From Woeseiaceae bacterium (GTDB taxonomy: Bacteria > Pseudomonadota > Gammaproteobacteria > Steroidobacterales > Woeseiaceae), in the NCBI GenBank assembly GCA_028227395.1, contig JAOIZZ010000001.1, positions 124,001-188,000 on the forward strand: 64,000 bases of DNA. Direction: 5' to 3'. Position numbers and translations under genes: made by a program. Below the pieces are notes generated by a model, which was given only the letters and a program-made list of their open reading frames with translations, was not told where the DNA came from and searched no databases. The stretch's first letter is position 1. Every line of letters begins with the position of its first letter. Shown here piece by piece: positions 33,656-64,000 of the stretch.

Positions 33656-33681
33656 GTCGTGAAATTTTTAGGGAGTTATGA

Positions 33682-34698: not shown

Positions 34699-34733
34699 AA
34701 TTTATTTATTAAATATTTCAAGGATCTAGAATT

Positions 34734-35720: not shown

Positions 35721-35733
35721 GCCAGATATCAGT

Positions 35734-36837: not shown

Positions 36838-37682
36838 AGGAAAAACTAGCACTGGGTACCGTTCAATTCGGTTTAGATTATGGGATTGTGAATCATAGTG
36901 GACAGGTTAAGTTTGAGGAAGTTAAGAAAATCCTTAGATATGCAAAGAAAAGTAATATTGATACATTGGACACAGCATCATCTTACGGTGACAGTGAGAG
37001 AATTCTGGGTAAGATTGGCGTAGAGGACTGTCAAATCGTAACAAAAACAACCCCTCTTAAAAATAATATCGATGATGTAATTGATAATTTTTATAAATCT
37101 TTAGAAAATCTTAATACTAGTCAGGTTAATGGGTTACTAATTCATGATATCAACGATATCGACAATAAGAACTTCGGCCAACTTTTTAACAAATTAAAAT
37201 TACTTCAAGATCAAGGTCTAATTGGCAAAATTGGTTTTTCAACTTATTCACCAATGCAAATTGATTTTCTATTAAATAACTTTGAGTTTGATTTGATACA
37301 ATTACCATTTAATGTCTTTGATACTAGACTTTCGAAGGGCGGTCAGTTAAAGGCCTTAAAAGATAAGGGTATCGAAATTCATTCTAGAAGTATTTTTTTA
37401 CAAGGTTTGTTATTAAATTTTGAAAATCTTCCAGACTATTTTTCAACTTGGAAAAGGCAATTTAATGATTATCAGTCAATTGTAAATGAAAGTGAGTTGT
37501 CATTACTGGAGTATGCAGTTAATTTTGTATTAAACACCCAAGAAATAGATAAAGTATTAGTGGGTGTAATTAATAAATGTCAGTTAAAAGAAATTGTTCA
37601 AGCTGTAAAAAATAAAAATGGCGTGAAACCTTACCCTATTGATGATATAAAATTAATTAATCCAAACTTCTGGGCAATATGA
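36834..37682 (+). CDS. Aldo/keto reductase family protein
   Basis: LALGTVQFGLDYGI...IDTLDTASSYGDSERILG; overlaps pseC. Confidence 0.85.
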   Translation: MKEKLALGTVQFGLDYGIVNHSGQVKFEEVKKILRYAKKSNIDTLDTASSYGDSERILGKIGVEDCQIVTKTTPLKNNIDDVIDNFYKSLENLNTSQVNGLLIHDINDIDNKNFGQLFNKLKLLQDQGLIGKIGFSTYSPMQIDFLLNNFEFDLIQLPFNVFDTRLSKGGQLKALKDKGIEIHSRSIFLQGLLLNFENLPDYFSTWKRQFNDYQSIVNESELSLLEYAVNFVLNTQEIDKVLVGVINKCQLKEIVQAVKNKNGVKPYPIDDIKLINPNFWAI

Positions 37683-38440
37683 TACTAGCAATACTTCAAG
37701 CTCGTTATTCATCTTCAAGATTGCCGAAAAAGGTGCTTAAGCCGATATTGGGAAAGCCAATGTTGCTTCACCAAATAGAAAGGCTGAAACATTCAAAAAT
37801 GATCGATAAGTTAGTAGTAGCAACTTCGATGAGCTTTTCAGATAATATTATTGAAAAAATGTGCAGAGATAATAATATCGATGTCTTTCGAGGTAATTTA
37901 GATGATGTATTAGATAGATTTTATCAATGTTCAGAGTCTTATGAATCAGATTATATTGTTCGTTTAACGGGTGATTGTCCATTGATTGATTGGAAAGTAA
38001 TAGATGAAACTATCCAATATTTTTTTGAAGGTAATTTTGATTTTGTCGAAACATCATTGAAATTTCCAGATGGATTAGATGCTGAAATTATGACTAAATT
38101 AGCTTTGAAAAGGGCATGGAATGGTGCAAAACTTCCCTCCGAAAGAGAGCATGTTACACAGTTTATTGTCAATAGACCCGAAGAGTTTCGTAACGGTATA
38201 TTTGAGCCAGTTGATGACTTATGTCATCATCGATGGACTGTTGACGAGCCTGAAGACTACGAATTTGTAAAAAAAGTATATCAGGCTTTATATAAAAAAA
38301 ATCCATTATTTCTAATGAAAGATATATTGAATTTATTGGATCAAAATCCAGGATTGATTGAAATGAATAGTAATTTTATAAGAAATGAAGGTTTAGAAAA
38401 ATCATTGATAGAGGATAAAGGATTTTTAAAAAATGTATAA
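37679..38440 (+). CDS. SpsF-type cytidylyltransferase-like protein
   Basis: ILAILQARYSSSRLPKKVLKPILGKPMLLHQIERL; RLTGDCPLID. Confidence 0.85.
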   Translation: MILAILQARYSSSRLPKKVLKPILGKPMLLHQIERLKHSKMIDKLVVATSMSFSDNIIEKMCRDNNIDVFRGNLDDVLDRFYQCSESYESDYIVRLTGDCPLIDWKVIDETIQYFFEGNFDFVETSLKFPDGLDAEIMTKLALKRAWNGAKLPSEREHVTQFIVNRPEEFRNGIFEPVDDLCHHRWTVDEPEDYEFVKKVYQALYKKNPLFLMKDILNLLDQNPGLIEMNSNFIRNEGLEKSLIEDKGFLKNV

Positions 38441-39707
38441 AAAATCAGAGCAATTATTAGATAGAGCGCTTAATTCTATTCCATTAGCCTCTCAAACTTT
38501 CAGTAAGAGCTTGTCTCACTACCCAAGAGGTGTTTCTCCGTTTTTTATTGAGAAAGGTGAGGGCGCAAAAGTCTGGGATGTCGACGGTAATAAGTACATT
38601 GATTTTGTTAATTCTTTAGCTGCAGTAACTCTAGGTTACTGTGATCCAGATATTGACAAAGCAGTATTAAAGCAATTAAAGAATGGAGTGACCTTTACCT
38701 TGCCGCATACCTTGGAAATGGAAGTTGCTGAGAAGTTAATCGAAATTATACCGTGCGCAGAAAAAGTTAGGTTCGCTAAAAATGGTACTGATGCTACAAG
38801 TGCCTCTATTCGAATTGCTAGAGCTTTTACAGGTAAAGAGCATATTGCCGTTTGCGGTTATCATGGTTGGCAAGACTGGTATATCGGTTCGACAGCAAGA
38901 GATCTAGGTGTACCTAAAAGTGTGAAGAGGTTAACTCATAAGTTTGAATTTAATAATATTGAATCATTGGAAAAGATCTTTCTAGAAAGAGAGATCGCAG
39001 GTGTGATTATGGAGCCGATGAATGTGGAGTACCCAAAAAATAATTTTTTACAAAAAGTAAAAGAGTTAACACATAAAAATAATGCCTTATTAATATTTGA
39101 CGAGACTATAACTGGATTTCGTTATTCGTTAGGTGGGGCTCAGGAACTGTTTGATGTTATTCCAGATTTGGCTACCTTTGGAAAAGGCATGGCAAACGGG
39201 TACCCTTTATCTGCTGTTGTTGGAAATAACAAAGTAATGAAATTGGTCGAAGATATCTTTTTTTCGGGAACTTTTGGTGGAGAAACGCTTTCTCTTGCTG
39301 CAGCAAATGCTGTGATTGATAAGTATAAGAAATGTGATGTAATAAAACATTTCTCTGAGGTTGGTACATATTTATCAGAGCAATTCGATAAATTGATTAT
39401 AGATCATAATTTGTCAGATGTTATCTCGATATCTGGACATCCATCATGGAGCTTTATTCAAATAAAAGAATATGAGGGGTATAATTCATTTCAGATTAAT
39501 ACATTTTTTTTACAAGAGATGTTCAAAAGAGGTAAATTAACTTTAGGTACACATAATCTAAGTTACTCTCATAAAAAAGATGAAGTTGATGGCTTGTTAA
39601 AAGTTTATGAAGAAGTTTTTCCATTGATTAAAAGCAATATTGAAAATCATACTTTGTTGGAAAATATAAAATGCGATGTCTTGGAGCCCCTATTCAAGAC
39701 AAGATAG
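38433..39707 (+). CDS. Class III aminotransferase (glutamate-1-semialdehyde aminomutase-like)
   Basis: YPRGVSPFFIEKGEGAKVWDVDGNKYIDFVNSLAAVTLG...TFGKGMANGYPLSAVVG. Confidence 0.9.
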   Translation: MYKKSEQLLDRALNSIPLASQTFSKSLSHYPRGVSPFFIEKGEGAKVWDVDGNKYIDFVNSLAAVTLGYCDPDIDKAVLKQLKNGVTFTLPHTLEMEVAEKLIEIIPCAEKVRFAKNGTDATSASIRIARAFTGKEHIAVCGYHGWQDWYIGSTARDLGVPKSVKRLTHKFEFNNIESLEKIFLEREIAGVIMEPMNVEYPKNNFLQKVKELTHKNNALLIFDETITGFRYSLGGAQELFDVIPDLATFGKGMANGYPLSAVVGNNKVMKLVEDIFFSGTFGGETLSLAAANAVIDKYKKCDVIKHFSEVGTYLSEQFDKLIIDHNLSDVISISGHPSWSFIQIKEYEGYNSFQINTFFLQEMFKRGKLTLGTHNLSYSHKKDEVDGLLKVYEEVFPLIKSNIENHTLLENIKCDVLEPLFKTR

Positions 39708-39864
39708 CATGTTAGTTAGATTGGATTTTGGTTCGCTATTAATTTAAATATATAATGTGAAGATAATAAAAATAGCTCTTAATTTTATTTTGATAATTTT
39801 TACCTCCTATTTATTTATTCTAAAGGATTTATAGCTGCATTGACTTTAATAGGAGTGTCTCTCA

Positions 39865-40893
39865 ATTACTAAAAAACCAAAATTAAAGAAATTAACTGTC
39901 TTGACTGAAGGGGGGAGGATATTTGGCTCGGGTCACATAACACGTTGCCTCTCTATTTGTAGTTATTTTGAAGATAATGGTGTGATTGTAGATTTTATTA
40001 TTGACGGAGATGACAGTATTTTGCCTGCTCTGGAAACTCATTCATTTATTCTCATGGAATGGCTAGATAATAAAGCGACACTAATGAAATTAGAAAAAAG
40101 CTCTTTTATTCTAATTGACTCTTTGAGAGTAACTGATAATCAGATTAGTGATATTCAAAGATTGGATGCTGAGATCATTTATATAGATGACGAACAGAGG
40201 CGAAATGTACTGGATTCTGGTTTTGTTTTAGATTGGACAATTCTGGCAGATAAAAAGAAATATTTTCTACCAAAAAAAGAGTCTATTACTTATCTTTTAG
40301 GTAGTAAATATACACCCATAAGAAAACCATTTAAAATAAATCAAAGAAAGTCTATATCAGATGAAATAAAGACTATTTTTGTCTCATTTGGTGGCTCAGA
40401 TATTAGAAATTTAACCCCAATTACTTTATCGACTTTGTGTAAAAATTATCCAAATCTGAAAAAGAATATTATTATTGGCCCTGGCTTCGAAAATATTGAA
40501 AATATTCAATTTCTTCAAGATAAAAATACTAATCTCGTTACAAATGCAAATGCATTGATAATGGCTAATTTGATGCAAGAAAGTGATGTAGCTATATCAA
40601 GTGGGGGACAAACTCTATATGAATTAACTTCAATAGGTGTTCCCACAATAGCGGTATTATTAGTAGAGAATGCAAGGGAAGATACAGAAGGTTGGGCGGA
40701 GGTTGGAGCTGTTGATTATGTTGGTAATTTTGATGATAAAGATTTAATGGAAAAAATAGTACAATCTGTAAATTCGTTGAAAAGTCAAAATAAAAGAAAG
40801 AAAATGCAGTCTGCTGCAAATAAATTCATAGGTTTTGATGGTGGAGCCAATATAGTAGATGCTGTCTTGAAGATAAGAAATGATAATATTTAG
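39865..40893 (+). CDS. pseG: UDP-2,4-diacetamido-2,4,6-trideoxy-beta-L-altropyranose hydrolase; probable ATT start
   Basis: KLTVLTEGGRIFGSGHITRCLSI and FVSFGGSDIRNLT...AISSGGQTLYEL; ORF track start at TTG 39901 would remove the first strand. Confidence 0.88.
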   Translation: MTKKPKLKKLTVLTEGGRIFGSGHITRCLSICSYFEDNGVIVDFIIDGDDSILPALETHSFILMEWLDNKATLMKLEKSSFILIDSLRVTDNQISDIQRLDAEIIYIDDEQRRNVLDSGFVLDWTILADKKKYFLPKKESITYLLGSKYTPIRKPFKINQRKSISDEIKTIFVSFGGSDIRNLTPITLSTLCKNYPNLKKNIIIGPGFENIENIQFLQDKNTNLVTNANALIMANLMQESDVAISSGGQTLYELTSIGVPTIAVLLVENAREDTEGWAEVGAVDYVGNFDDKDLMEKIVQSVNSLKSQNKRKKMQSAANKFIGFDGGANIVDAVLKIRNDNI

Positions 40894-41761
40894 AGACAGA
40901 GCTTCAACTGTGCTTTATGAAGTGCTTTCAGCATTAGATAATCATACTAAATTTCTAATGCCGGTCAATATTTGCCCTGTAGTTCCTGAAACCTTCTTAA
41001 AGGCAAATATAAAATTTGATTTTATTGATATCAATCTTAAAACTTTATGTATGGATGAAGTTTTAGCGTTAAAATCTATAAAAAACGATAGCTCAATAGG
41101 TGGAGTTTTATTTGTTAATACATTTGGAGTTGATATTGAAGTTGAGGAGTTCTTCCAAAAGTTAAAAAATATTAATCCTGATATCTTTATCATATATGAT
41201 CAATGTCTTTCGATTCAGGATTTCGAATTTAACCCTGATGAATCATTATCGTCTTTAGCGCTTTTTAGTTCAGGATACTCTAAGTATGTTGATTTGGGCT
41301 TTGGCGGCTATGGATTTCTAAAGAATAATGAATTTAATGAAACTTTTAAAGATAATAGTAAAGATAAAAGCTTTCTTGATTATAAAGTTAATGTTAAAAA
41401 TGAAATTTCTTTGATGCAAAAGCATAAGTCAAAATTAAATAGTATATATAAGAAAGGAATTCCATCTTATTTACATTTAGGTCAAGAGTTCGAAAATTGG
41501 AGATTTTCAATTTTAATTGACGAGAAAGATAAGTTACTAGAGGCGATTTTTAAAGAAGATGATTTATTTGCAAGTAGTCATTACGAACCGTTAGATCATA
41601 AATATTCAGATAACCCAATAATAAATTCAAATGCTAAGGTTATCTCATCAAGAATCGTAAACCTTTTTAATGATTTTAGATTTACTGATGCAAAAGCAAA
41701 AAGAGTAGTAAAAATTATTAATAATTTTATAAATGATAGACGAAAATTGAAGCCTAAATAA
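40880..41761 (+). CDS. Short divergent DegT-like PLP-dependent aminotransferase fold protein
   Basis: LMPVNICPVVPETFLKANIKFDFIDI, IIYDQCLSIQDF, SSGYSKYVDLGFGGYGFL; 293 aa. Confidence 0.6.
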   Translation: MIIFRDRASTVLYEVLSALDNHTKFLMPVNICPVVPETFLKANIKFDFIDINLKTLCMDEVLALKSIKNDSSIGGVLFVNTFGVDIEVEEFFQKLKNINPDIFIIYDQCLSIQDFEFNPDESLSSLALFSSGYSKYVDLGFGGYGFLKNNEFNETFKDNSKDKSFLDYKVNVKNEISLMQKHKSKLNSIYKKGIPSYLHLGQEFENWRFSILIDEKDKLLEAIFKEDDLFASSHYEPLDHKYSDNPIINSNAKVISSRIVNLFNDFRFTDAKAKRVVKIINNFINDRRKLKPK

Positions 41762-41783
41762 AATACTATTAAGAAAAGTAATT

Positions 41784-42530
41784 ATGCTTATAAAAACTAA
41801 AGCTTGTGCGATAATGCAACCGACATATTTACCTTGGCTGGGCTATTTTGATTTGATAGCTAATGTGAGAGATTTCCTTTTCTTGGATGATGTGAAGTTT
41901 AATAAGAGCTCTTATCATCATCAAAATAAAATCTTAGGTCCAAATGGGGATATTTTGTTAAGTATTCCAACTCATGCGGTAAAAGGCAGGATGGGTAGTA
42001 TGATCAATGATGTTGGTATAGACAGCACTAAGAGATGGCAAAAAAAACATCTAAAATCTATTCAGCAATCCTATAAGAAAGCACCATTTTATGATCAAAT
42101 ATATCAATATGTTGAATCAGTTTTATTAAGTGATATTGAAAAATTAAGTGATCTCAATATAGAAATCATTAAATTATTTTCTTCAATGCTATCCTTAAGA
42201 ACAAATTTTCATGTAGCAAGTAATTTGAAAAATATTTCAAAAGATAGGGTACGAAGATTAATTGATTTTTGTCAAATTAAAGACTGTAATTTTTACTATT
42301 CTCCTCTAGGTTCTCTGGATTATCTGGATACCACAGAGAATAAAGAATTATTTAACGATGCTAATATTGTGGTTTATTTTCAAAAATATGAGTTAATTCC
42401 GTATATGCAGAATCAAAAACAGAAAGAATTTGTACCTTATATGAGTATTTTAGATGTATTAATGAACTGTGGGATTGAGAGTACTAAAAATTTACTTACA
42501 AGAGGTAGACATATGTCTATATTTGAATGA
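41784..42530 (+). CDS. WbqC family protein
   Basis: CAIMQPTYLPWLGYFDLIANVRDFLFLDDVKFNKSSYHHQNKIL. Confidence 0.9.
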   Translation: MLIKTKACAIMQPTYLPWLGYFDLIANVRDFLFLDDVKFNKSSYHHQNKILGPNGDILLSIPTHAVKGRMGSMINDVGIDSTKRWQKKHLKSIQQSYKKAPFYDQIYQYVESVLLSDIEKLSDLNIEIIKLFSSMLSLRTNFHVASNLKNISKDRVRRLIDFCQIKDCNFYYSPLGSLDYLDTTENKELFNDANIVVYFQKYELIPYMQNQKQKEFVPYMSILDVLMNCGIESTKNLLTRGRHMSIFE

Positions 42531-43585
42531 ATAAAAAGATAGAAATAAATAGACATGTTATCTCTAATAAACATCCTCCATATATTATTGCAGAACTATC
42601 TGCCAATCATAATGGCGACATTGAACGTGCTTTTCAAAGCATAAAGGCAGCTAAGGACTGTGGTGCAGATGCGGTTAAAATACAAACTTACACCGCTGAA
42701 ACGATGACGATTAAAAGTGATAGAGAGGAATTTAAAATAAAAGGAGGTTTATGGGATGGCTATGATTTGTATAGTCTCTACAAGTGGGCAGAAACGCCTT
42801 ATGAGTGGCATAAGCCATTATTTGATTACGCTCATAAAATTGGCATTACTATTTTCAGTACCCCTTTTGATGTCACGGCGGTAGATCTTCTAGAAGATTT
42901 GAATGCACCAGCTTATAAAATTGCTTCATTTGAAGTAACAGATTTACCTCTTGTTAAACGCGTTGCACAGACTAAAAAACCTATGATAATTTCAACCGGT
43001 ATGGCTAATCTACAAGAGATTAATGATGTTGTTGAAACCGCTAAACTAAATGGCTGCAGAGATTTGATTTTACTGCATTGTATTAGTTCTTATCCAGCGC
43101 CAGCTTCACAGTCCAACTTGAGAACCATACCTGATTTGGCGGATCGTTTTGAGGTTTTATCGGGCTTATCCGATCATACAATGGGTACAACGATAGCAAT
43201 GGCGAGCGTTGCGCTTGGTGCAAGCGTGATCGAGAAGCACTTTACTCTCAGTAGGGCAGACAAAGGTCCAGATAGTGATTTTTCATTAGAACCTTTAGAA
43301 TTAATAGAGTTATGCGAGGAGACCAAAATAGTTTATCAATCTCTGGGTATTGCTGGTTATGAATTAAAAGATGCTGAGGCGTCAGGATTAAAATTTCGTC
43401 GATCTTTGTATGCAGTTAAAAGTATTAAAAAGGGAGAGAAATTTACGAATGAAAATGTTCGCTCAATTCGTCCTAGTAATGGATTGCTTCCTAAATACCT
43501 AGGATCTATTTTAGGTAAAGCTGCCAAAAAAGATATTGAAAATGGAACGCCATTAACTATTCTTAACACTGGTTTAAGAGATTAA
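42527..43585 (+). CDS. pseI: Pseudaminic acid synthase
   Basis: PPYIIAELSANHNGDIERAFQSIKAAKDCGADAVKIQTYTAETMT; C-terminal SAF domain. Confidence 0.95.
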   Translation: MNKKIEINRHVISNKHPPYIIAELSANHNGDIERAFQSIKAAKDCGADAVKIQTYTAETMTIKSDREEFKIKGGLWDGYDLYSLYKWAETPYEWHKPLFDYAHKIGITIFSTPFDVTAVDLLEDLNAPAYKIASFEVTDLPLVKRVAQTKKPMIISTGMANLQEINDVVETAKLNGCRDLILLHCISSYPAPASQSNLRTIPDLADRFEVLSGLSDHTMGTTIAMASVALGASVIEKHFTLSRADKGPDSDFSLEPLELIELCEETKIVYQSLGIAGYELKDAEASGLKFRRSLYAVKSIKKGEKFTNENVRSIRPSNGLLPKYLGSILGKAAKKDIENGTPLTILNTGLRD

Positions 43586-43635
43586 TTTTAGTTAATAGCT
43601 ATAAAAATTATGATAAATAAAGTTTGGATCAAGAT

Positions 43636-44253
43636 ATGATAAATAAATCAGTATGTATTCTGGATTATGGCAGTGGAAATGTTGGATCTGTGTTTAATCT
43701 CTTAAAGCACATGAAGTTAGATGCAGTAATATCTAACGAAGAGAAAGTAATTCAAAATTCCTCACATTTAATTCTACCTGGTGTTGGTTCCTTCGGTTCT
43801 GCTATGGAGAAAATTACAAATAATCTTCCGTTAGAGGTTTTGGAGAATGAGGTGTTAATTAAAAACAAGCCTTTTTTAGGAATATGTGTTGGTATGCAAG
43901 TTTTAGCGAATTATGGCTTAGAGTTTGGTAAGAATGCAGGTTTAGGATGGATAGATGGAGTTGTTGATATAATGCATTCTGCAGATCATCCTTTACCTCA
44001 TATTGGATGGAATAATGTGGAACGAACTCAGGAGTCAATGCTTATGTCGGGCTTCGAAAAAATAAATGATTTCTATTTTGTTAATAGCTATTGTTTTATC
44101 GCAAAAAATATAAATAATGTTCTTGCTGAGACGACGTACCATGAAAAATTTGTCTCGGTTATTGGGAAAGATAATATAATGGGAGTTCAGTTTCACCCAG
44201 AGAAAAGTCAAGGTGCAGGACAAAAAATAATAACAAATTTCTTGGAATATTAA
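43636..44253 (+). CDS. HisH-like glutamine amidotransferase subunit (nonulosonate-associated)
   Basis: VCILDYGSGNVGSVFNLLKH, FLGICVGMQVLA, GVQFHPEKSQGAG. Confidence 0.92.
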   Translation: MINKSVCILDYGSGNVGSVFNLLKHMKLDAVISNEEKVIQNSSHLILPGVGSFGSAMEKITNNLPLEVLENEVLIKNKPFLGICVGMQVLANYGLEFGKNAGLGWIDGVVDIMHSADHPLPHIGWNNVERTQESMLMSGFEKINDFYFVNSYCFIAKNINNVLAETTYHEKFVSVIGKDNIMGVQFHPEKSQGAGQKIITNFLEY

Positions 44254-45059
44254 TGAAAAAAAATCGTGTTATACCAGTATTGTTACTAAAAAATGGCTGG
44301 TTAGTTCAAAGTAGGGAATTTTCCAGGCATCAAAATTTAGGTAACCCTATAGATGCAGTAAAAAGACTTAGTAAGTGGGCCTCAGATGAGTTGATTTATT
44401 TGGATATATCGCGTGACGATTTATACGATATTAGGCGTGATGACCAAGGTTATAGGAATATAAATTCATTCCTAGGAATCATTGAGTCAATCTCTAAAGA
44501 AGTTTTTATGCCAATGACTATAGGTGGAAAAATAAAAAATCTTCATGATATTGAGAAAAGATTACTTTTAGGCGCAGATAAAATTTCGATAAATACTGAA
44601 GCTTATAAAAACAATAGCTTGATTGAGGATGCCGCAAAAGAATTTGGTTCTCAATGCATTATAGTGTCAATGGATGTTAAGCAAAATGAAAATGGATACA
44701 GTGTTTTCACTAACTTTGGAAAAAATGATACAGGCCATGATCCTCTTTATTGGTCTAAGCGCATGGAGAGCTCCGGTGCTGGAGAGATCTTGTTGAATTC
44801 AATTGATCGTGATGGGACAGGTATAGGTTATGATATCGAATTACTTGATCAAATATCTTCGAAATGCAAATGTCCCATTATCGCTCTCGGGGGAGTTGGT
44901 GAATGGAGTCATTTTAAGGAAGCTCTTGAAAAGACTAGTGTTGACTCAGTTGCGGCGGCCAATATCTTTCAATATACAGATCAAAGTGTCTTCTTAGCTA
45001 AAAAATATTTAGCTAAGAAGGGTTGTAATGTGCGTAAACCAGATTTATTAAAATTATAA
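44253..45059 (+). CDS. HisF-like cyclase/ammonia-channel subunit
   Basis: RVIPVLLLKNGWLVQSREFSRHQNLGNPIDAVKRLSKW...LLNSIDRDGTGIGYDIELL. Confidence 0.92.
   Translation: MKKNRVIPVLLLKNGWLVQSREFSRHQNLGNPIDAVKRLSKWASDELIYLDISRDDLYDIRRDDQGYRNINSFLGIIESISKEVFMPMTIGGKIKNLHDIEKRLLLGADKISINTEAYKNNSLIEDAAKEFGSQCIIVSMDVKQNENGYSVFTNFGKNDTGHDPLYWSKRMESSGAGEILLNSIDRDGTGIGYDIELLDQISSKCKCPIIALGGVGEWSHFKEALEKTSVDSVAAANIFQYTDQSVFLAKKYLAKKGCNVRKPDLLKL
44990..45020. repeat. 13-bp perfect inverted repeat inside hisF-like 3' end
   Basis: CTTCTTAGCTAAA-AAATA-TTTAGCTAAGAAG. Confidence 0.9.
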
Positions 45060-48897: not shown

Positions 48898-50310
48898 ATG
48901 ATATTAGTTAAGACTATTGCTCGGTGGTCATCACCCGATCTTTTGGATATTCCATTTAAAATAATTATCTATTTTACATTAATTAATTCTTTAGAAAAAT
49001 TTGATTTTGGCCTATTAAGTATAGCAATGATGATATTCAGCTATTCCTCAGTTTCTCAACTTGGAATAGTTGATTGGCTTCTTTATGAGTTACCAAAGAA
49101 ATATTCTTTAAATTTAAAAATGAATGACTTGATAGCACAGTCATATACTTTTGTATTCGTAAATCAACTGATAATGCTAGTAATAGTTTTTTTAATTGTT
49201 TTGTATTTTGATGAAGGTTCTTGGTTTTTTCGAATAGCATGTGCCACTTATATGTTGCATACGATATTTTATAATCGCTATTTGCATAAAAGATTATACT
49301 TGAGGTTCCAGCATAGGTTTAAGCATTTATTTAATGTCCAATTTATTCTAGTAATTTCTAAATTTATTATGCAGTTTGTAACTCTAAAATTCTTTGGAAT
49401 TTATGGTTTTTTGATTATAGAAATGACTATATATTTATTGCCAATATGTCTTTTCAAGTCTGATTCAGATTTTTCATTATTTGATCGAGATTGGATATCT
49501 AACTACTCTTATCTTTTTAAAAACGGACTACCTTTTTTTGCTGTCATACTTTTATCTACAATATTAGCTAACCTGGATAAATGGTTTATCATCGGAAATT
49601 TTGGTGTAGAAAAATTTGCAACTTATTCTTTGGGAGTATTTTTAGTTACTGGTCTTATGGTGTTTCCAGGTAAGGTGCTCTCGATATTTACTCAATATAT
49701 GAAGGAAATGTATATATTAGACAAGAATTTATCATCTAATATAGTTCGTAATCTTTCTGTAAATAATATCTTAATTTTTTTATTACTTTGTCTGATAACT
49801 CTCCTTCAGTTGGTATCGGTATATATAACTTTATTGCTTCCAAAATATGCTGATGTATTGCCCTTAATTAATTCATTTTTACTATCTGCACTTCTGAGTT
49901 ATGGTGTTTCTCTGACTTCTAATATTTTGTATTTAATTGAAAAGCGCGAATATGTAGCAAAGATTCAATTTTTCATTGTTATAATTTATGTATTACTTTT
50001 AATTGTGAATAGTTATTTTAATCTAAATATTATTTATATTATTTGGAGTATGTGCACTGTTTTAATTTTACAGATTTGTATCAATTTAGGATCGCTAGTT
50101 AAATTTGTGAAGCTAGATGATAAATCTGAATTATATAAATTTTTTATCACAATTATAGGGTCAGTCCTTTATTACGGAGTTAATGAGTATCGTCTTGATG
50201 CTATACCTTTTTTTTATTATTTGTCATTTGCGGTATTTATTCTATTTATAAAATTCGATAATAGTTGGAAAAATTTCAAACATATCGCTACACGAGATTT
50301 TTCTGCATAG
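48898..50310 (+). CDS. wzx: Wzx-like polysaccharide flippase
   Basis: Multi-TM protein with MATE/PST-type pattern (FDFGLLSIAMMIFSYSSVSQLGIVDWLLYELPKK). Confidence 0.8.
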   Translation: MILVKTIARWSSPDLLDIPFKIIIYFTLINSLEKFDFGLLSIAMMIFSYSSVSQLGIVDWLLYELPKKYSLNLKMNDLIAQSYTFVFVNQLIMLVIVFLIVLYFDEGSWFFRIACATYMLHTIFYNRYLHKRLYLRFQHRFKHLFNVQFILVISKFIMQFVTLKFFGIYGFLIIEMTIYLLPICLFKSDSDFSLFDRDWISNYSYLFKNGLPFFAVILLSTILANLDKWFIIGNFGVEKFATYSLGVFLVTGLMVFPGKVLSIFTQYMKEMYILDKNLSSNIVRNLSVNNILIFLLLCLITLLQLVSVYITLLLPKYADVLPLINSFLLSALLSYGVSLTSNILYLIEKREYVAKIQFFIVIIYVLLLIVNSYFNLNIIYIIWSMCTVLILQICINLGSLVKFVKLDDKSELYKFFITIIGSVLYYGVNEYRLDAIPFFYYLSFAVFILFIKFDNSWKNFKHIATRDFSA

Positions 50311-50541
50311 TTAGATTTGGTTTTTTGCCTTAATTCAAGGAAAGATGAAACCTAATATGAATAGGGTTTTATTAGTTAGTATTATTGTATATTTTTAAGA
50401 CCAGTAATTTGTATAAAAATATATCATCTAATACTAGCTAGATATCTTGTTAAGGTTTTTAAAACATTAAAAAACATCTGGTTAGGATTCAATTTTGGTT
50501 ATTTGTTAATGAATTGCATAGGTTAGTTTGATTGGATAGCT

Positions 50542-52023
50542 ATGAAAAAATATAAACATTATATTGTTGATTTATATAAATATTTGCGAACGCAAGTCAA
50601 ACCCATGGGCTATGCAGAAAATGTATCACCCTTTTTGTCTCAAAGGGCAGTTTTTGAAATTGAATGTACAGTGTTTGAAATGCTTAAGGACGATGCTACT
50701 GATTATTGGGGTGAAATATTTAAGCGAAATAAGCAATTATTTTTAATCGATAAGCTTGTTTTAAATGCTTCAAAACAGTTATCTGTCATATGGAGAATAC
50801 GTTTCATAATGATCTATCTACTTCGATCTATTTATGTTGTTTTCGATGCTTTAAAAATAATACTAATGATTCCTTCGACATATTTTCTTGCTCTCAATGA
50901 AAGTGGTAACAAAGCAAGTAAAAAAATAATAATTGTTTATACCAATAACCGCTCTCGTTCTAATATATTTAATATAGATAATCGTTATTATCAATATGAT
51001 ATGTTAGTCACTAAATCTAGTATTGATGGGTATAAATTAACTGATTCAATTAAGTTAAATTTAAAGCTCAAAATGAGTTGTTTGATGCTTAAATATAGGT
51101 TCTCTTATATTAATAGCGATACTATTATTCTTGCAGTCGCCTCAAAAATTCTTTTTGAAAGAGGTTTTGAGAAATTATCTACTAAGAAAAAGAATGCAGG
51201 AGTTTTCTCAAGAGAAGGAATTACTTTTCAAGCAAAAATGTTTTTGTATACTGCAGGTAGGGCTGGCTTCTTAAGAAATGTTCTTCATAATCTTCCGGTA
51301 ATTACACCAAATGTATTATTTCCTAGGGAATGCGATAACTTAGTTTTAATTAGTGATGTCCTTCCTTACTATGCGCACAAAACCACTAATGTTATTGTCT
51401 TAAAAGATAATCCTTATCTGCAATGGCGTGAGGTTGCCAGGAAACCACCCATGAAGAGAGTGGTAGGACTCCTCTTTGGGGATGATTGGAATCGTTGGGT
51501 TGAACAAGAGATCCTAGATAGAGAAATTCTTGAGAAGTTAAAAGATTTGGGTTGTACTTTATGCCTTGGAAGACCTCACCCTCAAGAGTTAACTCGACCT
51601 GAGAGAGTTAGGTACTATAATGATCTTGTTGAAGATTATCCATTTCTGAAATTAGAGTTAGGTGAGACAAAAAAATTCTTAACGGATATTTCTTTATTAA
51701 TAGTTTATACAAAAAGCACTATGGTTCAAGAAGCAATGTTATGCAGTAGACCTATTATAGAATATAGGGCTGAGAGAGATTTTTCACCCAATCAAGATGT
51801 ATTGACCTTATCAAATAATTTAGGCGCATCAATTTCAGATTCAAATTCGCTTGAAGATGAAATGCATAACTGTTATTCGCGGAGTAATAAACGTCTTGAG
51901 TTAATATGGAAAGGTTTTCTAAAAAATTTAGAAATTAGCATAACTTCAAAATTAAATATAAATAATATATTTGATCAACAATTAATTAACCCTATAATAC
52001 CAATCAATGATAATTCAGATTAA
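50542..52023 (+). CDS. Putative GT-B-like transferase of unknown family
   Basis: GRPHPQELTRPERVRYYNDL...DISLLIVYTKSTMVQEAMLCSRPIIEYRAE resembles GT-B C-terminal donor site. Confidence 0.5.
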   Translation: MKKYKHYIVDLYKYLRTQVKPMGYAENVSPFLSQRAVFEIECTVFEMLKDDATDYWGEIFKRNKQLFLIDKLVLNASKQLSVIWRIRFIMIYLLRSIYVVFDALKIILMIPSTYFLALNESGNKASKKIIIVYTNNRSRSNIFNIDNRYYQYDMLVTKSSIDGYKLTDSIKLNLKLKMSCLMLKYRFSYINSDTIILAVASKILFERGFEKLSTKKKNAGVFSREGITFQAKMFLYTAGRAGFLRNVLHNLPVITPNVLFPRECDNLVLISDVLPYYAHKTTNVIVLKDNPYLQWREVARKPPMKRVVGLLFGDDWNRWVEQEILDREILEKLKDLGCTLCLGRPHPQELTRPERVRYYNDLVEDYPFLKLELGETKKFLTDISLLIVYTKSTMVQEAMLCSRPIIEYRAERDFSPNQDVLTLSNNLGASISDSNSLEDEMHNCYSRSNKRLELIWKGFLKNLEISITSKLNINNIFDQQLINPIIPINDNSD

Positions 52024-53283: not shown

Positions 53284-54555
53284 ATGCGACTAATAAATAG
53301 AAATTGGGGGCATGTATTTCTATATTTACACATAATAACATTGAGCTGGTCTGCCGTTGCTCGACTTGGTGATTGGGCACCTCTTCCTCTTGTCTTTTTG
53401 GGATTAGCATTAATTTCAACTCTGATAGGTAATTTTTTTGAAATTAATTTTGATAAAAATGTATTGTTAAAGGTTTATAAAATAGATTTTGTCATCATAA
53501 TAGCATTTTTTCTTCTTTGTCTTAATGTTCTTTATAATCCCACGCCTAAAGGTGGTAATTATATCCTCGCGTATGGTGTTGTGTTTGGATTATACCTTAT
53601 CTATTCGGCACTTGGGATCAGTAAAATAAACGCTGAAGAAATATTAAAATATAATTATTATGCTATTAGTTTTATTTGTTTATTTGTAATTTTAGAAGTT
53701 GTAGGAAAATCTGCTCTTGGGTTTGATATATTCGAATGGATTCCTCGGACAAAAGAAGCAACTGCTAACTTTAGTATTGGGTATCGACGTGGCTATGGTT
53801 TATCAACTGAACCTACACAACTTGCTAACTACTTTGCTTGTTTTTCACCTTATGCTATTTGGTACAGATTGAATATAAAAGATAAGCAGATTGGTGTTTA
53901 CTCGGTTTTTTTAATAATAGCTGCATTCCTTACCGTTTCAACAGCTTTAGTTGTGGTGATTTTAAGCGCTACATTAGTTACCTTGATAATTACAAATCAA
54001 AAACTAAAAACTATCAAAACGATTGGCATTATATTAATAGCATTAATGTCTTTCTTTTTGCTTTTGATTTATTACCTGGGTATAGGAGATGTTTTGTTTG
54101 ATGCTTTTAGTAAAGTCTCAGATAAATTATCTATTTTGAACGTTACTGGTACAGGTAACATAAGGGACGTATATGGAACTTCAGTTAACCAAAGGCTTCA
54201 GGCTATTAACTCTGGCCTTTCGATGATAACGAGCTATCCATTTACTGGCGTGGGATTAGGCTACTTGTCTTCACTAGGAAAAGATAGTTCTATAAATTGG
54301 TATATTTTTCTCGGTGCAGAGGCAGGAATAATTATTTTATTTTTGTTTGTATTCTGGTTTATTTTTCATTTCATTAGTGCAATTTTGAATTATAAACAAC
54401 AAGAAAATGATATTTTCTTGTTTGCTGCTATTTCGATTTATTGCGGATTAGCTTATTTTATGTTCATTTCAACTTTTCAGAATCTTTTTTTATTGACCTC
54501 TATTTTATTATACCGAGTCATACTCAATAACTTAGTTGATCTGAAGGGGCACTGA
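53284..54555 (+). CDS. wzy: O-antigen polymerase/ligase-like (Wzy)
   Basis: Multi-TM with GYRRGYGLSTEPTQLANYFACFSPYAIWY and a large loop NQRLQAINSGLSMITSYPFTGVGLGYL. Confidence 0.78.
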   Translation: MRLINRNWGHVFLYLHIITLSWSAVARLGDWAPLPLVFLGLALISTLIGNFFEINFDKNVLLKVYKIDFVIIIAFFLLCLNVLYNPTPKGGNYILAYGVVFGLYLIYSALGISKINAEEILKYNYYAISFICLFVILEVVGKSALGFDIFEWIPRTKEATANFSIGYRRGYGLSTEPTQLANYFACFSPYAIWYRLNIKDKQIGVYSVFLIIAAFLTVSTALVVVILSATLVTLIITNQKLKTIKTIGIILIALMSFFLLLIYYLGIGDVLFDAFSKVSDKLSILNVTGTGNIRDVYGTSVNQRLQAINSGLSMITSYPFTGVGLGYLSSLGKDSSINWYIFLGAEAGIIILFLFVFWFIFHFISAILNYKQQENDIFLFAAISIYCGLAYFMFISTFQNLFLLTSILLYRVILNNLVDLKGH

Positions 54556-58016: not shown

Positions 58017-59135
58017 ATGAATGATAGAAACCTTAAAATTGTGCTTTGTGCCAATAGCAGCTGGTATATCTATAACTTTCGTAAAAATACAATTAATGAA
58101 TTTTTAAAGAAAGGCCATGAGGTTTTCGTTGTTGCACCAAATGATAAGTATACAAAATACTTTACTGATTTGGGTGCCAAGCATGTTGGTTTTAATTTAA
58201 ATCCGATAAGTACAAATCCTTTTAAAGAGATTATGGTTATATTTTCATTAATTATAATTTACATAAAAATGAGACCAGACTTTGTAATGAACTTTACTCC
58301 CAAAATGAATATATATAGTACTATCGCAGCTATTTTTATTAGGGCTAAAATAGTTAATAATATTTCCGGTTTAGGTGAAGCTTTTTCAAAGAATTCAGCC
58401 TTCTCATCATTTGTTAGCCAGCTGTATCGTTTTACTCAACGCTTTGCGATTAAAGTTTTTTTTCAAAATAAAAATGATATGAATCGACTTATTGAAGCAA
58501 AAATTGTTACTAAAGATAGGTGCGATTATCTTCCTGGATCAGGTGTTGATCTAGAAAGGTTCAAAATAGTAAGCGCACCCAATGATGAGGTAATTCGCTT
58601 CGTAATTGTATCCAGAATGCTTTATGATAAAGGGGTTGCGCTGCTAGCCGAAGCTGCCAAATATTGTAAAAATAAATATGGAACGAGTGTGGAATTTAAT
58701 GCAGTTGGATTTATAGATGATGTAAATCCTAGGGCAGTTCCAAGGAAAATATTGAATGAGTGGACCTCTAAAGGTTTTTTAATTTATAAAGGCGCTCTTG
58801 AGGATGTCCGACCTGAAATCGCTATTTCTGATTGTGTTGTGTTACCATCCGTTTATCCAGAAGGTACTCCTAGGTCCCTTCTTGAAGCTGCTGCGATGGG
58901 AAAACCGATTATTACAACAGATATGCCTGGCTGCTCCTCTACGGTAGATCATGGAATAAATGGTTTTTTATGTCAGCCTAATTCATTAAATGATTTAATT
59001 GTTAATTTGGAAAAATTAATTAAAATGAGTCATAGTGATCGGTGTAAAATGGGCTTTAAAAGTCGTGAGTTAGTAGTAAATAGATTTGACGAAAGAATTG
59101 TTATTAAAAAATATCTTAACTGTCTGGATTTGTGA
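58017..59135 (+). CDS. Glycosyltransferase, GT4 family
   Basis: VLCANSSWYIYNFRKNTINEFLKKGHEVFVVAP...LPSVYPEGTPRSLLEAAAMGKPIITTDMPGC. Confidence 0.92.
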   Translation: MNDRNLKIVLCANSSWYIYNFRKNTINEFLKKGHEVFVVAPNDKYTKYFTDLGAKHVGFNLNPISTNPFKEIMVIFSLIIIYIKMRPDFVMNFTPKMNIYSTIAAIFIRAKIVNNISGLGEAFSKNSAFSSFVSQLYRFTQRFAIKVFFQNKNDMNRLIEAKIVTKDRCDYLPGSGVDLERFKIVSAPNDEVIRFVIVSRMLYDKGVALLAEAAKYCKNKYGTSVEFNAVGFIDDVNPRAVPRKILNEWTSKGFLIYKGALEDVRPEIAISDCVVLPSVYPEGTPRSLLEAAAMGKPIITTDMPGCSSTVDHGINGFLCQPNSLNDLIVNLEKLIKMSHSDRCKMGFKSRELVVNRFDERIVIKKYLNCLDL

Positions 59136-59271: not shown

Positions 59272-60351
59272 ATGATAAATAATAAAAAAATATTAGTAAC
59301 TGGTGGAGCAGGATTTATAGGGTCTGCAGTTATTCGTCATATAATAAAAAATACCAATCATAGTGTCATTAATGTTGATAAGCTAACTTATGCTGGCAAT
59401 CTAGAATCTTTAATCTCGATAGATTCTGATCCAAGATATATATTTGAACAAATTGATATATGTAGTGCGAAAGATATTAAGCGAGTACTTGACCAGTATC
59501 ATCCTGATATAATCATGCATTTAGCGGCTGAGTCACATGTTGATCGATCAATTGATGGCCCAAGTGAATTTATAAATACCAATATTGTTGGTACCTATAT
59601 CTTGCTAGAAGAGACACGAAACTACTGGACTGGACTAGATGCTGAAGAGCAACGAGACTTTATTTTCCATCACGTATCCACGGATGAAGTTTATGGTGAT
59701 TTGGAGGATGTTGACGCACTATTTACTGAAAGTACTCCTTATGCTCCTAGTTCACCATATTCTGCCTCGAAAGCAAGTTCAGATCATCTTGTTAGAGCAT
59801 GGCAACGGACTTTTAAACTCCCAACTTTAATTACAAATTGCTCTAATAATTATGGCCCTTATCAGTTCCCTGAGAAACTCATTCCTCTGATAATTCTCAA
59901 TGCATTAAAGGGTAAACATTTACCAATTTATGGAAATGGTATGCAAATACGTGACTGGCTTTTTGTTGATGATCATGCGCGGGCTCTATTAAATGTTGCA
60001 CTAAATGGAAAAATTGGTGAAACATATAATATTGGCGGTCATAACGAGTTAAAAAATATAGATGTCGTAAAGATGATTTGTAGAATTTTGGATGATTTAA
60101 TCCCTAGTAAACATAATGGAATTGAAAAATACGAACAACTTATAACTTACGTGAAGGATAGGGCTGGTCATGATTTTAGATATGCAATTGATGCTGCTAA
60201 AATTGCCAATCAACTTAACTGGGTTCCAGTTGAGACTTTTGAATCAGGTATTAGAAAAACAGTTGACTGGTATATGGAGAATGCTACTTGGTGCGAGCAT
60301 GTGCAAGATGGTAGTTACCAAGGTGAAAGATTAGGAGTAATAAAAGAATGA
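59272..60351 (+). CDS. rmlB: dTDP-glucose 4,6-dehydratase
   Basis: [19 protein letters not shown]...[15 protein letters not shown]...[11 protein letters not shown]...[15 protein letters not shown]. Confidence 0.97.
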
Positions 60352-61211
60352 AAGGAATAGTTCTAGCTGGGGGCTCAGGTACTAGATTGCATCCTATAAC
60401 AAAGGGTATCTCGAAACAATTATTACCAGTTTATGATAAACCAATGATTTATTACCCTATTTCAGTTCTTATGCTTGCTGGTATTAGAGATATTTTAATT
60501 ATCTCAACTCCTGAAGACTTGCCATCTTATAGAGCGTTGCTTGGTAACGGTTCAGACTTTGGTATTAGATTTCAATATGCTGAGCAGCCCTCGCCGGACG
60601 GATTGGCACAAGCTTTTATCATAGGTGAAAAGTTTATAGGCAATGACAATGTCTGTCTTATTCTTGGTGATAATATTTTTTGGGGCCATGGTTTTACTTC
60701 ATTATTAGAGCAAGCAGTTTTGAATTTGAAAGGCGCAACTATATTTGGATACGCAGTTAAGGATCCAGCTCGTTTTGGAGTGGTTGAATTTGATCATAAT
60801 AATAAAGTTATTAGTGTCGAAGAGAAACCCAGACATCCAAAATCAAATTTTGCCATAACAGGGCTTTATTTTTATGATAATGATGTAATTGAAATTGCTA
60901 AATCTGTGGAGCCTTCAAACCGTGGTGAGTTTGAAATTACAAGTATTAATCAAGAATATTTAAACAGAGATACGCTAAGTATAGAGTTACTCGGGCGTGG
61001 CTTTGCTTGGCTTGATACAGGGACTTATGACAGTCTAATTGAGGCAGGGACATTTGTGCAAACAATTGAGCAGCGACAGGGTTATAAGATAGCATGCCTT
61101 GAAGAGATAGCATTTGAGAAAGGTTGGATTGATGAAAATTGTTTGCTTGCCGTTGTGGAAAAACTCTCAAACAACAGTTATAGCTCGTATTTGAAAAAAT
61201 TATTGACTTAG
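60348..61211 (+). CDS. rmlA: Glucose-1-phosphate thymidylyltransferase
   Basis: [37 protein letters not shown]. Confidence 0.97.
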
Positions 61212-61226
61212 ATTTGGAGTTTAATA

Positions 61227-62009
61227 TTGGCTAAATCAGAAGAATATAGAAAAAATTTGGAGAAGTATTTAGAGGTGGTATCCTCGTTCTCTAAATCTGA
61301 TTTATATGAAAATACACTTGAATCTTCATTCGAATCATTAAATGATTGGTCATTACATCATTCTTTAGCTGAAGTAAAAAATTGGTTCAGGCAAAAAAGA
61401 GAAGATTCTGACATGGAAGTAACTGAGATACCTCTGAATGAACTTGTTGGTTGGGGGTCTGATGAAAGCACTGGCAACATAAGCCATGAGTCTAACGATT
61501 TTTTTATAGTGCGTGGATTAAGAATACATACCAAAAGTAGAGAAGTAGCTTCAGGCTGGGAACAGCCTATTTTGGAACAAGTTGGATATGATGGTGGTTT
61601 ACTTGGTATTGTAAGGCAAAGATTCTCTGGGGTTCCTCATTATTTATGTGAGGCAAAGATGGAGCCTGGCAACTACGGTAAAGTACAGTTAAGTCCGTCG
61701 CTTCAGGCGACTTTCGCAAATATAGCAAAGTCTCATGGAGGGAGAAGACCTCATTTTCTAGAAATTTTTGAAAATTTAGATGAAAGTTCTAATAGCTTTA
61801 TTACATTATTTGATGCTTGGCTTGCTGAGGATGGGGGTAGACTTTACTTAAAAAGAAATAGAGGAATGCTTGTAGAGGTTCCAGAAAATTATGAGATCAA
61901 AATCCCTAATAGTAATTTTATTTGGTTAAGTCTTTATCAAATTAAAATACTTTTATCTGAGGATGCCTGGGTAAATCCACATATAAGAGGGATACTGGCG
62001 CATGTATGA
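61227..62009 (+). CDS. NDP-hexose 2,3-dehydratase family protein, single-repeat form (TTG start)
   Basis: IPLNELVGWGSDESTGNISHESNDFFIVRGLRI...GWEQPILEQVGYDGGLLGIVRQRFSGVPHYLCEAKMEPGNYGKVQLSPSLQATFANI. Confidence 0.88.
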   Translation: MAKSEEYRKNLEKYLEVVSSFSKSDLYENTLESSFESLNDWSLHHSLAEVKNWFRQKREDSDMEVTEIPLNELVGWGSDESTGNISHESNDFFIVRGLRIHTKSREVASGWEQPILEQVGYDGGLLGIVRQRFSGVPHYLCEAKMEPGNYGKVQLSPSLQATFANIAKSHGGRRPHFLEIFENLDESSNSFITLFDAWLAEDGGRLYLKRNRGMLVEVPENYEIKIPNSNFIWLSLYQIKILLSEDAWVNPHIRGILAHV

Positions 62010-62976
62010 TAGTGTTAGAGTGGGAATTCTCGGTTGCGCTAAAATCGCAGAACGATTCTTGATACCTGCATTTCAATCATCAAAAAACTATAAGTTGGTA
62101 GGTATTTCAAGTAGATCACACGATTCTGCAAGTAGGTTCGCAAAAAAGTTTTCTATGAAAATATTTGAGACTTATGAGGATATGATAATTTCCAATAGTA
62201 TCGATGCCATATATATTCCTCTTCCAAATAGTTTGCATTACAAATGGATAAAAAAATCACTCGATAATAATCTCCATGTACTCGTTGAAAAATCATTAGC
62301 ATGTAATTTTGATGAGGTATCTAATCTTACAAAAATGGCAAAAAGCAAAAACTTAGTTCTCTTAGAAAATTTTCAATTTAGGTTTCACTCTCAGTTGCAT
62401 TATATTGAATCTTTAATCACTAATGGTGAGATCGGTTGTATAAGAAATATAAGAAGCTCTTTTGGCTTTCCTCCATTTCAAGATTCTGAGAATATACGTT
62501 ATAAAAAAGAATTGGGTGGTGGTGCACTATTAGATGCAGGGGCTTATCCTTTAAAAATTGTACAAATGTTCATGAGTGACGATATCCATATTGCAAGTTC
62601 GAATTTATATATAGATGAGAGTTTTGGAGTAGATACATACGGAAGCTTTCAGGTTAATGACCGAAAATTAAAAATAACAGCCCAGTGTGCATTCGGCTTT
62701 GATAATTTTTATCAATGTAATATTGAGTTATGGGGTTCAAAAGGCAAAATACAGGCCAATCGAATTTTCACTTCTCCGCCCGGATCATCTTCAACGGTTG
62801 AAATACAAAATGACGATGGCGATCGCTCTATTTTGATTCCTCCAGATGATCATTTTGTTAATATGCTGCAACATTTTTTTAATTTAATTAATAATAGAAG
62901 TGATATTGAGCGGGAACATAGTCAAAATATGAATCAAGCCAAATTACTAGAGCAAATACGGAATAAAAGTAGATGA
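62002..62976 (+). CDS. Gfo/Idh/MocA oxidoreductase, probable NDP-hexose 3-ketoreductase
   Basis: VRVGILGCAKIAERFLIPAFQ...AIYIPLPNSLHYKWIKKSLDNNLHVLVEKSLACN...GGGALLDAGAYPL. Confidence 0.85.
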   Translation: MYDSVRVGILGCAKIAERFLIPAFQSSKNYKLVGISSRSHDSASRFAKKFSMKIFETYEDMIISNSIDAIYIPLPNSLHYKWIKKSLDNNLHVLVEKSLACNFDEVSNLTKMAKSKNLVLLENFQFRFHSQLHYIESLITNGEIGCIRNIRSSFGFPPFQDSENIRYKKELGGGALLDAGAYPLKIVQMFMSDDIHIASSNLYIDESFGVDTYGSFQVNDRKLKITAQCAFGFDNFYQCNIELWGSKGKIQANRIFTSPPGSSSTVEIQNDDGDRSILIPPDDHFVNMLQHFFNLINNRSDIEREHSQNMNQAKLLEQIRNKSR

Positions 62977-64000
62977 AAATACCATTTGTTAAAGCACCTA
63001 TGATTGGAAATGAGGAGAAATATTTACTTGAGTCATTTCGAAGTAATTTTCATGGAGGAAATGGACCATTTACGAGAAAGTGTCATAAGTTTATTGAAGA
63101 TTATTTTGGTATCGGAAAGGTTCTAATGACAACATCTTGTACTGATGCACTTGAAATGGCAGCATTTTTAGTTGATGCAGATCCTGGCGATGAATTTATT
63201 GTTCCCTCCTATACTTTTTCTAGTACTGCAAATGCATTTGCCTCTAGAGGCTTGATTCCAATTTATTGTGATATTCGGATGGATACCTTAAATATAGATG
63301 AAAATAAAATCGAGGGATTGATCACCACTAAGACAAAAGCAATAGTCCCCATACACTATGCTGGAGTACCTGCAGAAATGTCACATATTAGCTCCATTTC
63401 AAAGAAGTATGGTATTCCAGTAATAGAGGATGCTGCACAAGCGGTAAATTCAAAATATAAAGGAGAGTTTGCAGGAAGCTTGTCTGATATTGGGACATTT
63501 TCGTTTCATGCTACAAAATCATATTCCTCGGGAGAAGGTGGTGCTTTAACACTCAATCGAGATAGTTATTTTGAGCGTGCTGAATATCTTTGGGAGAAAG
63601 GAACTGATAGAAGTTTAGTTGTCCAAGGAATACAAAATAAATACTCATGGGTTGATTATGGTTCATCCTTTCTTCCCTCTGATATTTTAGCTTCACTGCT
63701 TTTTGGTCAATTAGAAAATATAGATTTAATGCAGGGTATTAGAAAAAAAGTTCACGATAATTACTTGAAAACATTTGAAGCTTTCGCTGATGATGGACTG
63801 AAAATGACTTACGTGCCAGAGCATATAGAAACAAATTATCATGCTTTTTGGCTTTTATTTGAGAAGCCGCAACAAAGAGAGCTTTTTTTAAAGCTATCAC
63901 TATCTGAGCAACTGAATCCTTATATTGGATATATTCCCCTTCATTCCTCTCCAATGGGAAAACGATTAGGTGGCGACAAATTTGAATTACCAATAACCGA
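62973..64000 (+). CDS. dTDP-4-keto-6-deoxyhexose transaminase, WecE/RffA-like, partial (runs off window)
   Basis: Manual translation: MKIPFVKAPMIGNEEKYLLESFRSNFHGGNGPFTRKCHKFIEDYFGIGKVLMTTSCTDALEMAAFLVDADPGDEFIVPSYTFSSTANAFASRG...FSFHATKSYSSGEGGAL; ATG overlaps TGA of previous gene; not in ORF track. Confidence 0.93.
   Translation, partial: MKIPFVKAPMIGNEEKYLLESFRSNFHGGNGPFTRKCHKFIEDYFGIGKVLMTTSCTDALEMAAFLVDADPGDEFIVPSYTFSSTANAFASRGLIPIYCDIRMDTLNIDENKIEGLITTKTKAIVPIHYAGVPAEMSHISSISKKYGIPVIEDAAQAVNSKYKGEFAGSLSDIGTFSFHATKSYSSGEGGALTLNRDSYFERAEYLWEKGTDRSLVVQGIQNKYSWVDYGSSFLPSDILASLLFGQLENIDLMQGIRKKVHDNYLKTFEAFADDGLKMTYVPEHIETNYHAFWLLFEKPQQRELFLKLSLSEQLNPYIGYIPLHSSPMGKRLGGDKFELPIT

Follow-up and report, generated by a model that had tools for sequence, protein, structure and literature searches.

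The stretch of DNA analysed here (the window; 64,000 nucleotides, C1:124001-188000 of the Woeseiaceae bacterium assembly, a genome that is 84.6% complete) ends in five consecutive genes predicted to make an amino deoxysugar linked to deoxythymidine diphosphate (dTDP). One of them encodes a short form of nucleoside diphosphate (NDP)-hexose 2,3-dehydratase. The genes and their products, with lengths in amino acids (aa), are as follows:

59272..60351, + strand: RmlB, dTDP-glucose 4,6-dehydratase (359 aa; TIGR01181 492.9 bits, cut-off 365.1)
60348..61211, + strand: RmlA, glucose-1-phosphate thymidylyltransferase (287 aa; TIGR01207 485.7 bits, cut-off 360.65)
61227..62009, + strand: predicted single-domain NDP-hexose 2,3-dehydratase (260 aa, TTG start; one PF03559 domain)
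62002..62976, + strand: predicted Gfo/Idh/MocA NDP-hexose 3-ketoreductase, KijD10-like (324 aa; PF01408 1.3e-23)
62973..64000, + strand, cut by the window end: predicted WecE-family sugar 4-aminotransferase (PRK11706 414.9 bits, cut-off 375; PF01041 1.9e-67)

The listing of open reading frames (ORFs) places all five genes exactly where the original prediction had them, with overlaps of 4 bp (rmlB/rmlA), 8 bp (dehydratase/ketoreductase) and 4 bp (ketoreductase/aminotransferase); rmlA and the dehydratase gene are separated by 15 bp. The aminotransferase gene ends at about window-equivalent position 64115, 115 bases beyond the window, and its full-length product is 380 aa (contig L002:6973-8115).

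Profile searches gave family matches far beyond chance for all five proteins, and the identities first proposed for them were borne out. RmlB and RmlA both exceed their TIGR cut-offs. The protein encoded at 61227-62009, originally assigned to the 2,3-dehydratase family, matches PF03559 strongly over residues 48-259 (193.8 bits, cut-off 25, E=3e-57), and its best solved relative is EvaA (6e-58). Similarly, the fourth protein has the Gfo/Idh/MocA fold and its best relative in the PDB is the sugar 3-ketoreductase KijD10 (1.2e-56), as had been suggested; the catalytic Lys and Tyr are conserved in related loci within the motifs EK (K97) and GGALLDxGxY (Y182). The pyridoxal phosphate (PLP) lysine of the aminotransferase lies in SFHATK (K182) and is likewise conserved. 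The 342 aa inside the window suffice to pass the cut-off of PRK11706 (dTDP-4-amino-4,6-dideoxygalactose transaminase), in line with the proposed WecE type, and the other best models are WecE-, PseC-, LegC- and ArnB-type transaminases. The score of this truncated query against TIGR02379 (368.8) is below the cut-off of 434.85.

The dehydratase differs in architecture from the enzymes of its family that have been studied. EvaA, the only 2,3-dehydratase described as well characterised, consists of two PF03559-type domains: the active site is pocket A, where mutating E139 and E190 abolishes activity, and pocket B is described as a gene-duplication remnant that is inactive (PMC8987622). With 260 aa, the window protein has a single domain instead of the two tandem domains of EvaA-type proteins (about 430-480 aa), a point on which the original prediction was silent. 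It aligns separately with each EvaA half, better with half A (118.6 bits) than with half B (79.2 bits), and in the alignment its E146 and E201 correspond to E139 and E190. An AlphaFold model (mean predicted local distance difference test score 80) retrieved EvaA as the best Foldseek match (E 2.7e-14, template modelling score over the query 0.70), followed by Nudix hydrolases, mostly weak, so the predicted structure would have the Nudix-like fold of the PF03559 superfamily.

Thirteen single-domain proteins were found in all, and both glutamates are present in each of them. EPGN, H170, G172 and K209, at positions typical of half A, are invariant among the 13, whereas at R105, E106, G204 and P175 the single-domain proteins are like half B instead. 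Because its length is half that of EvaA, the window protein might be taken for an inactive half left by degradation or truncation of a two-domain enzyme. This is highly improbable, since intact single-domain forms occur in 13 genomes, group in a clade of their own (100/100) and share 53 invariant columns in the alignment, both catalytic glutamates among them. Additionally, no remnant of a second domain lies 3' of the dehydratase gene, whose stop is overlapped by the start of the ketoreductase gene. The short dehydratase would function with one domain, probably forming a homodimer that replaces the fused pair of EvaA. The label 'antibiotic-style' that the locus had first been given has to be qualified, since the dehydratase belongs to a separate single-domain clade and not to the two-domain antibiotic type.

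PF03559 is rare outside actinomycetes. The domain was found in 1/101 genomes of the window's family, 4/369 of its class and 1/399 of its phylum (the window's own genome counted in each), and in 1/298 of a Campylobacterota sample, this one being a metagenome-assembled genome (MAG) already known to carry it. Among Acidimicrobiia and Actinomycetota it was found in 12/296 and 10/397 genomes, respectively (both samples include genomes already known to match). The 13 single-domain forms comprise the window, a gammaproteobacterium of another family (L069), the Helicobacteraceae MAG (L004), whose dehydratase is 71% identical to that of the window, and ten loci from Acidimicrobiia, of which four belong to genomes of 0.9-1.1 Mb. 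Two domains are present in every plasmid homologue and every new Actinomycetota match whose locus was read, including one from Serratia and one from Hoeflea. The patchy spread suggests horizontal transfer; no phage or viral homologues were found.

Several other PF03559 genes were recorded during this survey. The two-domain gene on the Hoeflea plasmid (L037:7965-9245) adjoins glycosyltransferases, and another lies on a gammaproteobacterial chromosome (L071:6024-7313) with no ketoreductase or aminotransferase partner nearby; both are outside antibiotic clusters. The L034 and L035 proteins (747-756 aa) were measured from stop to stop, and for this reason no fusion is claimed for them. The third short stretch seen in L045 was regarded as a split profile match and discounted. 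Another gammaproteobacterium encodes a distant homologue of 225 aa (L070:7736-8410; at most 28% identity), which has an AEPGN motif and a Gln at the position of the second catalytic Glu; its gene overlaps one for an epimerase-type short-chain dehydrogenase/reductase.

Phylogenetic analyses bear on where the short form came from. In a 41-domain tree, the single-domain proteins fall on one side of a branch supported at 100/100, with half B at 100/99 and half A at 85/70. With 61 rows, support was 99/84 for half A, 100/98 for half B, and 99/88 for the single-domain rows together with the L070 homologue. Since the single-domain, A and B groups are separate in both trees, recent loss in one of the sampled actinomycete lineages does not seem to be how the short form arose. 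An approximately unbiased test on a smaller set did not reject a position of this clade next to parts of half A (p 0.34), the best trees giving a separate clade. With L070 as outgroup, placement with half B costs 0.34 log-likelihood units (p 0.48) and the position of the root is not discriminated; under a non-reversible model, at least 17 root branches lie within 1.3 units. Pre-duplication ancestry and early loss of half B thus both stand. We entertain, tentatively, the possibility that the short form is a surviving pre-duplication lineage acting as a homodimer in surface-glycan synthesis, and that the two-domain antibiotic enzymes arose from its relatives by duplication.

The short dehydratase gene tends to be accompanied by the same functions. 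Gfo/Idh reductase and DegT aminotransferase genes occur close to it in 13/13 cases each, RmlA and RmlB in 11/13 each, and a GT2 glycosyltransferase in 9/13; an ArnC/PgfS-like polyprenyl-phosphate glycosyltransferase is often near. Gene order and orientation are shuffled between loci, and the hosts are Gammaproteobacteria, a Campylobacterota MAG and Acidimicrobiia. Since individual genes of these kinds are common in surface-glycan loci, the co-occurrence of any single partner is weak; the strong point is that the whole set recurs in shuffled order across three phyla. Judged from sequence, the five functions are a conserved pathway module, and this module and the single-domain dehydratase clade, with their putative function, are the novelty of the locus. 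None of the module partners was found within the stretch examined around the two-domain genes of L034, L035 and L071, which are in non-antibiotic contexts.

Two further observations concern the module of the Helicobacteraceae MAG. Its RmlB (L004:6598-7608) is 52% identical to that of the window (59272-60351), compared with 71-72% for RmlA, the dehydratase and the aminotransferase, and RmlB may thus have been exchanged during the history of the module. Between its ketoreductase and aminotransferase genes lies a gene for a hexapeptide acyltransferase (L004:9353-9925), which the window module does not have and which suggests N-acylation of the amino sugar in the MAG. Past position 64000, no acetyltransferase or N-methyltransferase gene adjoins the window module.

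The chemistry known for these families gives a route from RmlA through RmlB, a 2,3-dehydratase and a 3-ketoreductase to a C4 transaminase. RmlA would convert glucose-1-phosphate to dTDP-glucose and RmlB would convert this to dTDP-4-keto-6-deoxyglucose. The single-domain PF03559 enzyme would then eliminate the C2 hydroxyl to give dTDP-3,4-diketo-2,6-dideoxyhexose, the Gfo/Idh/MocA enzyme would reduce C3 to give dTDP-4-keto-2,6-dideoxyhexose, and the WecE-family enzyme would aminate C4 to give dTDP-4-amino-2,4,6-trideoxyhexose, the product named in the original prediction. We infer these activities from observed family identity, architecture, catalytic residues and co-occurrence. A single linear pathway is supported because the dehydratase, ketoreductase and aminotransferase all have their catalytic residues and the five functions are found together in unrelated genomes; together with the family match of the dehydratase, this also argues for the predicted product. 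We therefore consider it likely that the five genes form one route to dTDP-4-amino-2,4,6-trideoxyhexose for a surface glycan by way of the short dehydratase. The D-lyxo product (2-deoxy Fuc4N) is a guess by analogy with KijD10-like and WecE-like enzymes, as is the stereochemistry at C3 and C4.

Other uses of the same genes can be envisaged. WecE-type enzymes use dTDP-4-keto-6-deoxyglucose, and with its PRK11706 match the aminotransferase could make dTDP-Fuc4N directly, side by side with a dehydratase and ketoreductase that make a separate 2,6-dideoxy sugar or have some other role. One route fits better, because the single-domain dehydratase is accompanied across phyla by the ketoreductase and aminotransferase, in shuffled order, and the three genes overlap in the window; moreover, the locus showed no 4-ketoreductase that would finish a 2,6-dideoxy sugar, although none was specifically searched for. 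Two parallel pathways are thus distinctly unlikely. In vancosamine-type pathways, the aminotransferase (EvaB) acts at C3. Correspondingly, the window aminotransferase could aminate the 3,4-diketo intermediate at C3, after which the Gfo/Idh enzyme would reduce C4 to give dTDP-3-amino-2,3,6-trideoxyhexose; chemically, a 2,3-dehydratase can be followed by either order, Gfo/Idh/MocA enzymes vary in their target carbon, and conservation is weak among the distant ketoreductases of the module. We nevertheless regard amination at C3 as unlikely, given that the aminotransferase passes the PRK11706 cut-off, with WecE-, PseC-, LegC- and ArnB-type enzymes as its other best models, and that the reductase, among solved structures, is closest to a sugar 3-ketoreductase.

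The genes on both sides place the proposed single route to the 4-amino sugar in a glycan locus:

53284..54555, + strand: Wzy/O-antigen-ligase-like membrane protein (PF04932 4.6e-08)
58017..59135, + strand: GT4 glycosyltransferase, directly upstream of the module (PF13692 8.4e-22)
L002:8227-11403 (window-equivalent 64227-67403): GT2, GtrA (8.5e-14) and a 567-aa DUF6044 membrane protein

The last three genes resemble a Gtr glycan-modification cassette in their arrangement. Further downstream are a YjbH-type exopolysaccharide gene and, identified by eye, an outer-membrane export-like gene and a WecA-like gene. The downstream GT2 scores best against PgfS (168 bits) and ArnC (144 bits), and in the same place the Helicobacteraceae MAG has an ArnC/PgfS-like GT2, an ArnF-like flippase and a PMT_2-like protein. 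For these reasons, the likeliest fate of the sugar appears to be that it is loaded on undecaprenyl phosphate and transferred outside the cytoplasmic membrane, all scores being under equivalog cut-offs. The GT2 just past the window end would probably load the sugar and GtrA would flip it, followed by its addition to a surface glycan on the periplasmic side. As originally predicted, rmlC and rmlD are absent from the window; the genome also has no PF00908 (RmlC) match, no RmlD over the cut-off, and the window RmlB as its sole RmlB over the cut-off. Rhamnose is therefore no evident alternative outlet for RmlA and RmlB.

Several points weigh against this interpretation. No assayed enzyme of the single-domain clade turned up in the literature searched. 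The ketoreductases of Acidimicrobiia loci are only about 23-31% identical to that of the window and some are only weak matches, and C3 specificity across the module is thus not assured. In L031, the aminotransferase found is of another type, in which His replaces the PLP Lys, and it probably does not belong to the module; no RmlB was found in the stretch examined there. The GT2 scores are far below the ArnC/PgfS equivalog cut-offs (for PRK10714, 143.8 bits versus 529), and the absence of RmlC is provisional because of the incomplete genome.

Two other parts of the locus lie upstream. A nonulosonic-acid-type pathway (32459-45059) comprises genes for a UDP-sugar dehydrogenase, Polysacc_synt_2, epimerases, DegT, an aldo/keto reductase, a cytidylyltransferase and NeuB. 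It also contains a WbqC-like gene and a class-I glutamine amidotransferase/HisF-like pair (43624, 44253) that suggests amidation or amidination of a sugar. At 48898-52023, two ORFs of 470 and 493 aa have no Pfam match and lie in the lowest-GC part of the locus (~29%).

The module shares features with several known systems. Like EvaA-type enzymes (EvaA, Gra27, TylX3, OleV, SpnO and UrdS), the dehydratase has PF03559, a Nudix-like fold in the structure search and the pocket A glutamate pair, and a Gfo/Idh reductase gene adjoins it, as in several actinomycete plasmid clusters with EvaA-type enzymes. In contrast to the two fused domains of EvaA, it has one domain and lies in a separate clade, and its gene is in a glycan locus with no polyketide or peptide genes adjoining. 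The L-ossamine/L-kedarosamine system (OssS, OssT, OssJ) likewise combines a 2,3-dehydratase with a 3-ketoreductase and with a transaminase whose annotation is dTDP-4-amino-4,6-dideoxygalactose transaminase; the pathway proposed for it begins with the same four steps and aminates C4 later, and an L-kedarosamine-type intermediate was discussed (PMC6490886). However, that pathway includes 3-deoxygenation, epimerisation and N-methylation for a polyketide, for which no genes adjoin the window module, and its dehydratase is 452 aa versus 260 aa. As in L-Ara4N (Arn) and Gtr systems, a maker of a 4-amino sugar lies beside an ArnC/PgfS-like GT2 and a small flippase (GtrA here, ArnF-like in the MAG), although the module would use a dTDP route to another sugar. 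RmlA, RmlB and a WecE-family transaminase are shared with dTDP-Fuc4N synthesis, to which the module adds two enzymes predicted to remove the C2 hydroxyl ahead of transamination. Of the genes that distinguish dTDP-L-rhamnose synthesis, rmlC had no match and rmlD none over the cut-off in the 84.6% complete genome.

In the open-access literature (subscription journals being mostly outside the search), no relevant paper on 2,3-dehydratases in polysaccharide clusters or on such a pathway was found. A match in the Aeromonas literature was rejected as a different enzyme, per, listed as GDP-4-keto-6-deoxy-D-mannose-3-dehydratase. The characterised 2,3-dehydratases come from antibiotic producers, and the double-length form is the only one studied so far. 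A natural one-domain form would directly test the need for the second domain of EvaA, and would be a simpler enzyme for making 2-deoxy sugars. Additionally, the module would point to a 2-deoxy-4-amino sugar in bacterial surface glycans, including those of bacteria with genomes of about 1 Mb.

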